Shown here piece after piece: positions 4,692-7,803 of a stretch of DNA of 64,000 nucleotides; the stretch's first letter is position 1, and each line of letters opens with the position of its first letter. This DNA is from Kutzneria kofuensis (GTDB taxonomy: Bacteria; Actinomycetota; Actinomycetes; Mycobacteriales; Pseudonocardiaceae): contig NZ_JACHIR010000001.1 in NCBI RefSeq assembly GCF_014203355.1, forward strand, positions 1,924,038-1,988,037, read 5' to 3'. The translations under genes were made by a program, and so were the position numbers. Under the pieces are notes generated by a model. The model searched no databases, was not told where the DNA came from, and was given only the letters and a program-made list of their open reading frames with translations.

Positions 4692-5986
4692 TCAGAACGG
4701 CCAGACCTCGCGCTCGCCGGCCTCGAGCAGCGGAACCATGCCGAACGCCGCGTCGCTCAGTCCGCCGAAGGTGAAGCGACCCTCGGTGTGGCCGAACTCG
4801 TAGCCGGCCAGGTTCCACGTGTAGACGGGCACGTCGCGCGGCACTGCCTTGCCCGGCAGCGTGCGGCCGCTGTGCTGCTCGTCCGTCACGATGACCACGC
4901 GGTCGTGGCGACGGTAGAACCGCCGCAGCGCGCCCACCGTGTTCGTGCCGCCGAGGTCGCCGAACCGGTCCCGCACCACCGGCAGCACCGACTCGCCCGC
5001 CCGCAGCTCGACCGGCTTGGCCGTGCTGCCGAACTGCACGAGGTCGGCGTTCTCCGCCCGCAGCGCGATCGCGGTGCCGAACAACGCGGCCGCGTCCGCC
5101 CTGGTCAGGTCGGAGTTGCCCGACACCTCGCTGTAGAACATCGACCCCGAGCGGTCGACCAGCACCAGCGTGCGGCCCGGCAGGCTCGGCACGTTCGCCA
5201 GGCTGGCGTCGAGCGCCCGCTCCAGCGCCCACGCCCAGCGCAGCGACGGCGCCGCCCGGTACGCCGACAGGAACCGCATCGGCAGCTGCCGGGACCGCGC
5301 CACCTGCTCCGGGTCCGCCAGCCGCGCCGCGACCGTGGCCGCCACCTCGTCGGACACGCCCGCCCGGTCGAAGTTGCGCAGGTTGCGCAGCAACGCCATG
5401 TAGCCCATGGTCGGGATCAGCGCCGTCCACACCTCCGCCGTCAGCGGCCCTGCAGCCAGCCGGCGACCGACTCCCATGTCATGCCGGCCCGCTTCAGCAC
5501 CGGCGTCGCGTCCCCGGCGAACAGCTCGCGGCGGCGCTCGACCGGCCAGGCCAGCAGTTCCTCGCGGGCCTGGAGCACCGAGAGGTGCGCGGGGATTTCC
5601 GCGGCGTTTCCGTAACGCCGGTCGAGGGCGTGCGTGAACAGCGCACCCTGCCAGCTCTCCGTCGGCTTCGGGTGCGTCAGATTCAGCACGTCGCCCATTC
5701 GAACGCCGCGCGCCTCGCTGTCCCACTTGAGCAGCGCACGCTCGTCGTAAAGGCGGCGAACCGCGTCACCGATTCCACGCTTGACCGGCTTCGGAATCGT
5801 ACGTCCGTGCACCGTGAGCCAATAGGACAGGAATTCACCCGGCTCGTCGGCACGCTGCAGCACCGAATTCACGACCTGTCGCGTCATCCCCGGTTCGCTG
5901 CGCGCGTAGGCGAATTCCGCGGCGCCCACGATCGACGCCGAGCGCATGTTCGCCGGGCCACGCAGCCAGCCGAGCAGGCGCGCCGT
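4692..5986 (-). pseudogene. TROVE-domain (Ro60/Rsr-like) RNA-binding protein, frameshifted and lacking its N-terminus
   Basis: Two overlapping minus-strand frames together make most of an actinobacterial TROVE protein. The first frame (from about 5986, with an internal ATG at 5947) gives TARLLGWLRGPANMRSASIV and continues to AGWLQG near 5450. The sequence then continues in another frame as PLTAEVWTALIPTMGYMALL, so one base appears lost in a G run at about 5445-5455. The second half is the vWA-like domain with the MIDAS motif DRSGSM. Full-length relatives have roughly 90-100 more N-terminal residues; here the frame is closed by a TGA just upstream and no good start exists before 5947. A Y RNA with an intact-looking fold lies just upstream on the same strand. 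Ro60 family proteins are ring-shaped Y RNA binders. It is either a decayed gene or carries a sequence error plus an N-terminal deletion. Confidence 0.75.
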
Positions 5987-6019
5987 CCTACCCCCTCTCG
6001 GCGACCGCGGACACGTCCG

Positions 6020-6130
6020 AGATCAATGTCGGTGACGGTGATGCCAATTGCTCTACCAGCTGAGCTACCGGGTCTTCCCGGGCGGGATTCGAACCCGCGA
6101 CCCATCGATCCGAAGTAACCGTCGCCTGCG
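6020..6130 (-). ncRNA. Bacterial Y RNA (YrlA-like) with a circularly permuted tRNA-like module
   Basis: Read 5'->3' on the minus strand there is: a stem strand (6126-6118); a linker; a T arm with 5-bp stem and loop TTCGAAT (6098-6082) holding T54, T55, C56, G57 and A58; a 5-bp acceptor-like stem closed by the tetraloop AAGA (81-77 and 72-68 of the 6000s); the dinucleotide TA; a D arm GCTC-AGCTGGTA-GAGC (6065-6050) with A14, G18, G19 and A21; and a second stem strand (6039-6031) that pairs with the first at 8 of 9 positions. The T arm therefore precedes the D arm and there is no anticodon loop or CCA end. This is the order known for YrlA RNAs, whose terminal stem binds Ro60. It lies immediately upstream of a TROVE gene on the same strand. 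Exact ends are estimates. Confidence 0.85.
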
Positions 6131-6275
6131 CACCGGACGCATCCGCGATCAGCACCCCCGAGTTCATGGTGTCCCACGGCGGGATTCTTCGTGACAGGAA
6201 GTAACCGCTGGACTTCGCACCGGGAGTGCTCGGCAAGCAGTAGGTCTTCCGCGGCGTTGGTCGCGACGGATTAAT

Positions 6276-6887
6276 TCAGGCGCCGACCAACAGGCCGATC
6301 CCGACCACCGCCATCGTCGCCGCCACCAGGCCGTCCAGCACACGCCAGGACGACGGCTTGGTGAACAAGGAACTCAGCAGCCGGGCGCCGAAGCCGATCG
6401 CCGTGAACCAGCACAGGCTGGCCAGCACCGCGCCGATCGCGAAGTCCCAGCGCAGCGCGCCGTAGCCGGCCGCGATCGAGCCCAGCAGCAGGACCGTGTC
6501 CAGGTAGACGTGCGGGTTCAGCCAGGTCATCGCCAGGCAGGTCAGCGCCGCCCGCTTGCGGGAGCCCGTCGTCGCTCCGTCCACCGACATGCTCGACGGT
6601 TTCCACGCCCGCTTCGCCGCCAGAAATCCGTAGCACAGCAGGAAAATCCCGCCCACCACCGCCACCGCCGTGACCGCCGCCGGCCAGGCCTGCACCAGCG
6701 CGCCCACGCCGCCCACGCCCAGCCCGATCAGCACCGCGTCCGATGCGCCGCAGATCGCCACCACCGTCAGCACCGCGTCTCGTCGGATGCCTTGACGCAG
6801 CACGAAGGCGTTCTGCGCGCCGATCGCCACGATCAGGGACAGAGAGGTGCCGAAGCCCGCCGCCACGACGAGCACCACGTTGGTCAT
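6276..6887 (-). CDS. LysE/ArgO-family amino acid exporter
   Basis: About 203 residues with five to six hydrophobic helices. GFGTSLSLIVAIGAQNAFVL at the N-terminus and TWLNPHVYLDTVLLLG in the middle are hallmark LysE/ArgO sequences; these proteins export basic amino acids such as lysine and arginine. The ATG at 6887 places the hydrophobic N-terminus directly after the start; the upstream in-frame ATG at 6917 would add ten polar residues and run into the operator. A LysR-type regulator is divergently transcribed with only 70 bases between the genes, the usual lysE-lysG (argO-argP) arrangement. Confidence 0.88.
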   Translation of the reverse strand: MTNVVLVVAAGFGTSLSLIVAIGAQNAFVLRQGIRRDAVLTVVAICGASDAVLIGLGVGGVGALVQAWPAAVTAVAVVGGIFLLCYGFLAAKRAWKPSSMSVDGATTGSRKRAALTCLAMTWLNPHVYLDTVLLLGSIAAGYGALRWDFAIGAVLASLCWFTAIGFGARLLSSLFTKPSSWRVLDGLVAATMAVVGIGLLVGA

Positions 6888-6924
6888 GGTTCTGGACGCT
6901 AAATCCGGCCTTGTCAACAGTCCA

Positions 6925-6950
6925 GCTAATGATTCTTACGTATCATTAGC
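6925..6950. promoter_or_regulatory. Perfect inverted repeat between lysE and lysR (probable LysR operator)
   Basis: Arms 6925-6933 and 6942-6950 are perfect 9-bp inverted repeats around an 8-base spacer. The site is AT-rich against a GC-rich background and lies just before the LysR start codon and 38 bases before the exporter start. LysR proteins bind interrupted dyads of this kind, so co-effector dependent control of the exporter and autoregulation are likely. Confidence 0.65.
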
Positions 6951-6957
6951 GGCCGTG

Positions 6958-7803
6958 ATGACCGACCTGCCCGCCGACCACGTGCGGACCCTGCTCGCCG
7001 TCGTCGACGCCGGCACCTTCGACGCCGCCGCCGCGGCCCTGCACGTCACCCCGTCCGCCGTCAGCCAGCGGATCAAGTCCCTCGAACAGCGGACCGGCCG
7101 GGTGCTGCTCATGCGCACCAAACCCGTCCAGCTCACCGAATCCGGCCAGGTGATCGTCCGCTTCGCCCGCCAGCTCGCCCAACTCGAACGCGACGCCCGT
7201 GCCGAACTCGGCATGACCACCGCCGGCGAGCCCACCCGGCTCTCCATCGCCGTCAACGCCGACTCGCTCGCCACCTGGTTCCTCCCCGCCCTGTCGGCGG
7301 TCCCCGGCGTCTGCTTCGAACTCCATCGGGAGGACGAGGGACACACCACCCAACTCCTTCGCGAGGGCGTTGTCATGGCCGCCGTCACCTCCACCCCCGA
7401 CCCCGTCCAGGGGTGTTCCGTCCGTTCCCTCGGCTCGCTCCGCTACCTCGCCTGCGCCTCCCCTTCGCTGGCGTTCACCACCTTCGCCGACACTCCCGTC
7501 ATCGTCTTCGACCGGTACGACCAACTCCAGGACCGCTTCGCCGGCGGCGCCAGCGCCTTCCGCCATCACATGCCGTCCTCCACCGCCTACCTCGACGCCG
7601 TCGTCACCGGCATGGGCTGGGGCCTCATCCCCGTCTCCCACGCCGTCCCCCACCTCGCCGCCGGCACCCTCGTCAACCTCGCCCCCTCGCGGCACATGGA
7701 CGTTCCCCTCTTCTGGCAGCAGTGGAAACTCGACTCCCCCGCCCTCGCCGCCGCGGCCACCGCCATTCTCGAAGCCGCGGCGACGACACTCGTGCAGAAG
7801 TGA
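6958..7803 (+). CDS. LysR-type regulator, ArgP/LysG-like
   Basis: A 281-residue protein with the N-terminal winged HTH typical of LysR regulators (TFDAAAAALHVTPSAVSQRI, then KSLEQRTGRVLLMR), followed by a periplasmic-binding-type co-effector domain. The sequence resembles ArgP/LysG, which senses lysine or arginine and activates the exporter. The ATG at 6958 starts the protein directly before the HTH; a GTG at 6955 is also possible. The divergent LysE gene and the palindromic site between them support this role. Confidence 0.87.
   Translation: MTDLPADHVRTLLAVVDAGTFDAAAAALHVTPSAVSQRIKSLEQRTGRVLLMRTKPVQLTESGQVIVRFARQLAQLERDARAELGMTTAGEPTRLSIAVNADSLATWFLPALSAVPGVCFELHREDEGHTTQLLREGVVMAAVTSTPDPVQGCSVRSLGSLRYLACASPSLAFTTFADTPVIVFDRYDQLQDRFAGGASAFRHHMPSSTAYLDAVVTGMGWGLIPVSHAVPHLAAGTLVNLAPSRHMDVPLFWQQWKLDSPALAAAATAILEAAATTLVQK

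Follow-up and report, generated by a model that had tools for sequence, protein, structure and literature searches.

The window, that is, the whole 64,000-nucleotide stretch of DNA from the soil actinomycete Kutzneria kofuensis that was analysed, carries on its minus strand a bacterial Y RNA of the YrlA type, a new representative of a known class, together with a broken TROVE/Rsr gene that adjoins it on the same strand. An initial annotation had placed a Y RNA at 6020-6130 next to a TROVE gene. The tRNA-mimic module that it described is correctly located, while the RNA itself is larger (6152-5998) and its basal stem much longer; the neighbouring gene is indeed TROVE, but its disruption had escaped notice. 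The elements of the locus are the following.

5998..6152, minus strand: full-length YrlA-type Y RNA (tRNA-mimic module plus basal stem), by the full-length match of covariance model R3, with RF02553 at 6026-6122 (48.7 bits)
6112..6144, minus strand: basal stem, 5′ strand, family motif CCGGUGCGCAGGCGACGGUUACUUC, pairing with 6009-6039
6009..6039, minus strand: basal stem, 3′ strand, family motif GAUCUCGGAC, by the family alignment and the R3 match
6144-6135 with 6018-6009, minus strand: outer helix GGAUGCGUCC/GGACGUGUCC, a part of the Y RNA outside 6020-6130
6123-6118 with 6039-6034, minus strand: outer stem GACGGU/ACCGUC
6098-6082, minus strand: T arm GCGGG-TTCGAAT-CCCGC, loop TTCGAAT (equivalents of T54, T55, C56 and A58), its stem pairs formed in 100% of cells in 75 homologues
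6081-6068, minus strand: acceptor-like stem CCGGG-AAGA-CCCGG, 5 bp, closed by AAGA; 7/7 family pairs change on both sides
6067-6066, minus strand: UA (positions 8-9), between the acceptor-like stem and the D arm
6065-6050, minus strand: D arm GCTC-AGCTGGTA-GAGC, loop AGCTGGTA, its 4 stem pairs invariant in 75 homologues
6151..6230, minus strand: probable second Y RNA, YrlB-like, without a tRNA module and with a long terminal helix, by motifs and position and the G000-G003 alignment
5450..5986, minus strand: 5′ remnant of TROVE/Rsr, beginning at residue 67 of the relatives’ protein, with the start codon and the first 66 residues gone (tblastn with three intact relatives, 88-89% identity)
4692..5450, minus strand: 3′ remnant of TROVE/Rsr in a different frame, with a base lost within GGGCCC near 5449 (Pfam TROVE, 66.5 bits)

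Positions 6276-7803 hold an ordinary export pair, a LysE-type transporter (minus strand) and a divergent LysR regulator (plus strand).

How is the Y RNA built? Between 6098 and 6050 on the minus strand, the T arm, the acceptor-like stem, the UA dinucleotide and the D arm follow one another in permuted order, and this module lies inside the longer RNA 6152-5998, whose 5′ and 3′ ends together form the basal stem (helices 1-4, an interrupted stem of 22 pairs in the family consensus). The T-before-D order on one strand, proposed initially from the letters, is borne out by the Rfam YrlA, motif-scanner and R3 matches. The proposed junction, an acceptor-like stem with an AAGA tetraloop followed by UA, is present at 6081-6066, and the T and D loops of the window RNA hold the complete set of tRNA invariants, with G18, G19, T54, T55, C56 and A58 all retained, as had been stated. 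Across the 75 aligned sequences, the TTC-A columns of the T loop are invariant and one G column of the D loop is nearly so, while the second G column is blurred by variation in loop length. The single-sequence folding energy is ordinary (z of -1.1 for 96 nt and -1.0 for 149 nt), and the case for a Y RNA is therefore based on covariation rather than on stability.

To assemble homologues, 390 genomes of the actinomycete family were searched for TROVE, which occurs in 97 of them, and the DNA upstream of 80 matches was fetched. The motif scanner detected the permuted module in 135 of 170 sequences (a set that includes DUF7873 loci and repeats). The alignment comprises 75 distinct TROVE-linked RNAs from 79 scanner hits, with L033 (twice), L038 and one of the two L118 copies omitted. 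Across these homologues 38 pairs are supported, 26 of which change on both sides, and 95.3% of the cells are paired. The covariation is 0.464, as compared to 0.165 in shuffled alignments (0/500 reached 0.464) and at most 0.097 with slid partners. The covarying pairs include all 7 pairs of the acceptor-like stem and most of the outer pairs; the latter fall beyond the stretch matched by Rfam, so the basal stem reaches well past 6020-6130.

The Rfam covariance search, which had been set beforehand as a check, matched YrlA (RF02553) at 6122-6026 on the minus strand over model positions 1-114, with an E-value of 4.7e-10, scoring 48.7 bits where the gathering score is 69. At the gathering threshold, Rfam accordingly gives no match in the window, and it reports YrlA in 0 of 20 related loci that hold such RNAs. 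The Rfam YrlA threshold thus overlooks loci of this family. Since the window is among the training rows of the covariance model R1, which was trained on TROVE-linked loci and used for co-occurrence, R3 was built without the genus as an independent test, from 40 of the 75 rows, none of them from Kutzneria. The whole length of R3 aligns to 6152-5998 (132.6 bits, E 2.9e-28), its one site in the window genome at E≤0.01. The YrlA architecture proposed at the outset is supported both in the window and in its relatives.

The linkage to TROVE holds across the family. At E≤1e-18, R1 matched 86 of the 390 genomes, and 83 of these 86 also carry TROVE; at E≤1e-10, 95 genomes matched, 92 with TROVE. TROVE genomes lacking an R1 match number 14/97 and 5/97 at the two thresholds, counts from a scan that used Infernal’s stricter filters, by which weak matches are lost. 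Among seven Kutzneria genomes (that of the window spans 10.4 Mb), four have TROVE and five have a YrlA match at E≤0.001. Of the named loci, those of Kutzneria sp. 744 and K. buriramensis are the closest.

Could the element instead be a decayed tRNA gene, or a junction of tandem tRNAs that merely appears permuted? Weak YrlA matches do behave in this way elsewhere in the window genome, where L003, L004 and L005 are tandem tRNA genes and L007 and L009 fall on single tRNA genes. At the window locus, however, ARAGORN finds no tRNA, and the tRNA model RF00005, which was examined for an ordinary, unpermuted order, covers the T arm only (15.2 bits, E 2.4). Moreover, across the 75 homologues the two strands of the acceptor-like stem pair with each other and covary inside this RNA, and we give an explanation by ordinary tRNA genes practically no chance beside that of a Y RNA. 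A CCA-bearing permuted tRNA in the window was also considered and rejected, the RNA having no CCA and a stem of only 5 bp. The expectation that tRNA finders would miss or mis-annotate such an RNA proved right on both counts: ARAGORN is silent at two of the four Kutzneria loci (the window and L020) and calls a tRNA over the Y RNA at the other two, tRNA-Arg at L019:7691-7759 and tRNA-Thr at L021:9759-9849. These two calls are likely false tRNA annotations in related genomes, and a tRNA finder can thus turn Y RNAs into false tRNAs.

Circularly permuted tRNA genes occur in red algae and archaea. In such genes (PMC3978253), the 3′ half precedes the 5′ half, as it does in the window RNA; unlike them, the window RNA has no anticodon loop and no encoded CCA, and a tRNA product is not expected. 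The closer likeness is to YrlA (RF02553), which, as described in PMC8394870 and PMC7790460, shares the permuted T-acceptor-D module, the basal stem made from two ends and the Rsr/TROVE neighbour. The T-loop invariants and most of the D-loop invariants are likewise common to YrlA and the window family. The window RNA differs from YrlA in its sub-threshold Rfam score, a property of all 20 related loci, in its acceptor-like stem of 5 bp (7 bp in 63 of the 79 scanner hits) and in its broken Rsr gene.

Directly upstream of the Y RNA, a long inverted repeat with the basal motifs CCGGUGCG and GGUUACUUC is common to four Kutzneria loci. YrlB lacks a tRNA module. The second RNA of the window resembles it in being tandem, stem-rich and free of a tRNA module, and in sharing basal motifs; in Salmonella, YrlB is the second RNA of the operon rsr-yrlBA-rtcBA (PMC7790460). 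The segment 6230-6151, which the initial annotation had passed over, is thus a probable YrlB-like second Y RNA, assigned by motif and position only. Its motifs were hit in the window, L020 and L021, with fold z-scores of -1.2, -3.4 and -2.8, respectively. At many loci of the family, extra RNAs precede YrlA, some with a T arm only; L048, L051, L054, L118 and other family loci have up to three tandem RNAs before TROVE, namely T-arm-only, module-free and YrlA forms.

The TROVE gene of the window bears two lesions. The relatives G001-G003 have open TROVE frames of 499-525 aa. Measured against L020, the window has lost about 200 bp in the 5′ lesion, and a GGA microhomology marks the junction (about 5986-5988). 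At residue 245-246 the frame changes. The NCBIfam Rsr model gives the 3′ piece 39.9 bits against a cut-off of 900, a score obtained for the window’s piece alone, which we do not weigh as evidence. Might the gene nevertheless be functional, its breaks being assembly artefacts or bypassed by programmed frameshifting? One of the lesions is a single base in the GGGCCC run, and the TROVE gene of G120 is also one base short at the same codon; for the frameshift lesion alone, this leaves room for a sequencing error or a mutational hot spot. Neither a base-calling error nor frameshifting explains the deletion of the start codon and 66 residues with GGA microhomology, and a functional gene is therefore quite improbable. 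Programmed frameshifting was rejected as a full account, as it fails on the missing start; it could fit the one-base lesion.

The wider TROVE comparison covered 120 stretches, some of them the same gene twice, of which 117 matched and 101 were without a flag; the diverged genes L032-L036, L038, L154 and L155 were flagged for partial alignment only. G239 has a frameshift in TROVE, a case similar to the window. At L021 (G003), about 1.4 kb of extra DNA lies between the Y RNA and TROVE, whereas the two almost adjoin each other in G001 and G002. The TROVE genes of L204 (G228) and L205 (G240) contain an in-frame insertion of about 390 codons at residue 266, possibly an intein.

What becomes of the Y RNA when its partner gene is broken? 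More than 250 species have been reported to carry Y RNAs close to Ro60. In other bacteria, according to PMC8394870 and PMC7790460, Rsr is bound by the basal stem of the Y RNA, and its tRNA-like end acts with PNPase, steering it toward structured RNA. By analogy, the basal stem formed from both ends would be the part that binds the ring of Rsr (Ro60/TROVE) in relatives, and the permuted T-acceptor-D module, a partial tRNA mimic, would be the effector end that meets PNPase; modification of the window RNA by tRNA enzymes, raised initially, may likewise be inferred from work on other species. PNPase and RtcB domains are present in the window genome. Because the Rsr gene is disrupted by the 5′ deletion and the frameshift and a genome search found no second TROVE in the window genome, the Rsr-Y RNA-PNPase complex can probably not assemble, and the window Y RNA has probably lost its Ro60 partner. 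We hold with considerable confidence this reading of the locus, a YrlA-type Y RNA whose complex is probably blocked by the disruption of the adjacent Rsr gene. Since the Y RNA is structurally intact and keeps its basal motifs, the loss of Rsr appears recent. An intact RNA beside a broken partner is, we infer, what would be expected of a Y RNA recently stripped of Rsr, either as a relic or as a tRNA mimic that acts Rsr-free.

The latter possibility, in which the Y RNA still works without Rsr, either through direct contact with PNPase or tRNA enzymes or as a decoy that occupies nucleases cutting tRNAs, is favoured by the intactness of the RNA beside the broken TROVE and by several other loci. 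L202 (G161) and L201 (G170) retain the Y RNA next to what is left of a TROVE gene after a large internal deletion, L200 (G233) retains two matching RNAs with no TROVE match, and another protein, DUF7873, has a related module at its side, in most cases lacking a basal stem of the Rsr type. However, basal motifs of the Rsr type, superfluous in a role without Rsr, are retained in the window copy. The R1 scores of G161 and G170 are 101-102 bits, against at least 112 in the strong matches of the same genus, which are mostly training rows, and this fits slow decay. In addition, strong R1 matches without TROVE are confined to 3/86, plus the window with its broken TROVE. We thus regard continued Rsr-free function as doubtful, though a real possibility. 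The window offers a natural example of a Y RNA that has outlived the breakage of its Ro60 gene, in which Rsr-independent function becomes testable.

The DUF7873-linked RNA lies outside the window. Weak YrlA matches in three Kutzneria genomes were traced to an RNA downstream of a gene for DUF7873 (PF25283, of unknown function); on the three loci, the Rfam YrlA model gives weak matches of 30.8-38.5 bits, and further hits at E 0.096-0.96 are chance-like. Over about 300-330 nt after DUF7873, the RNA consists of two units in tandem, both made of a basal stem and a permuted T-acceptor-D module, and a terminator-like hairpin comes after them, as in L062:2228-2650, L214:3732-4060 and L266:2732-3142, where the region is unannotated. 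The RNA shares with the window Y RNA the permuted module inside a basal stem, and differs in its two tandem units and in having DUF7873 instead of TROVE as its neighbour. An alignment of 27 of the 30 loci L060-L089 (L084, L087 and L088 omitted) contains 89 predicted pairs, 41 of which change on both sides. R3 mostly matched the tRNA module alone in these RNAs, with weak alignments over the full model in L022 (44.5 bits) and L060 (33.5 bits); hence, the Rsr-type basal stem is seemingly not shared by them.

DUF7873 occurs in 32 of the 390 family genomes, in 6 genomes, all from a single genus, of a phylum-wide sample of 396, in 4 plasmid-collection records (Streptomyces, Nonomuraea), and in 73 phage records and 52 viral-contig loci; no match was found in the window’s own genome. 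The covariance model R2, trained on family sequences only (21 of the 27), matches all 6 DUF7873 loci of the phylum-wide sample at E≤1.2e-8. In viral DNA the test covered 47 of the 52 loci (L218 and L226 are too short; L262, L264 and L265 are partial), and R2 matched 43 of the 47 at full length or nearly so at E≤1.2e-8, the second unit being found; six pairs of viral loci tie exactly in score, each pair probably representing one phage entered twice. The misses are L231, L233, L250 and L251, and in L235, one of the 43, the match is on the opposite strand, about 1.2 kb off. The regex scanner finds modules in 33/47 viral loci, as compared to the 43/47 of the covariance model, and gave 0 hits in 980 shuffled stretches, the shuffling being by two-base blocks and weaker as a control than a dinucleotide-preserving one. 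In the viral matches (39 distinct rows), changes occur on both sides in 36 of the 37 pairs and the covariation is 0.873, against 0.214 in shuffles, in an alignment fitted to R2, which favours covariation. The phage records with DUF7873 include Vibrio, Rhizobium, Serratia and cyanobacterial ones, and the RNA search covered four of the 73: R2 matches three of these four named phages (Mimi, Ziko and Phendrix), and its match in Klebsiella phage KpLz-2_45 is weak and partial. DUF7873 with its twin-module RNA is thus found in actinomycete chromosomes, in actinophages and in many viral contigs whose host is unknown.

As far as our searches of the open-licence literature reach, with no paper found on DUF7873/PF25283 and with phage-borne permuted tRNAs and Y RNAs also covered, this system is undescribed. 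It is a more novel lead than the window RNA, the interest of which is the broken partner gene. On balance, we lean towards the view that at least two RNP systems share the permuted tRNA-mimic module as a portable part, one with Ro60 and the other with DUF7873 and its twin-module RNA; the basal stem would set the partner and the mimic would provide the shared activity, and a Y RNA could thereby outlast its Ro60. RNAs with twin permuted tRNA mimics whose neighbouring protein has no assigned function, in phages among others, would widen Y RNA biology beyond Ro60. The DUF7873 sequence has no PDB match at E≤1, and its predicted structure resembles none of the known folds of PDB or BFVD at E≤0.001; the five predicted models have pLDDT values of 61.9-91.8, and the best of them combines a pLDDT of 91.8 with a pTM of 0.68. 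In the DUF7873 RNAs, CCA follows position 73 in 31 of the 46 modules hit by the scanner.
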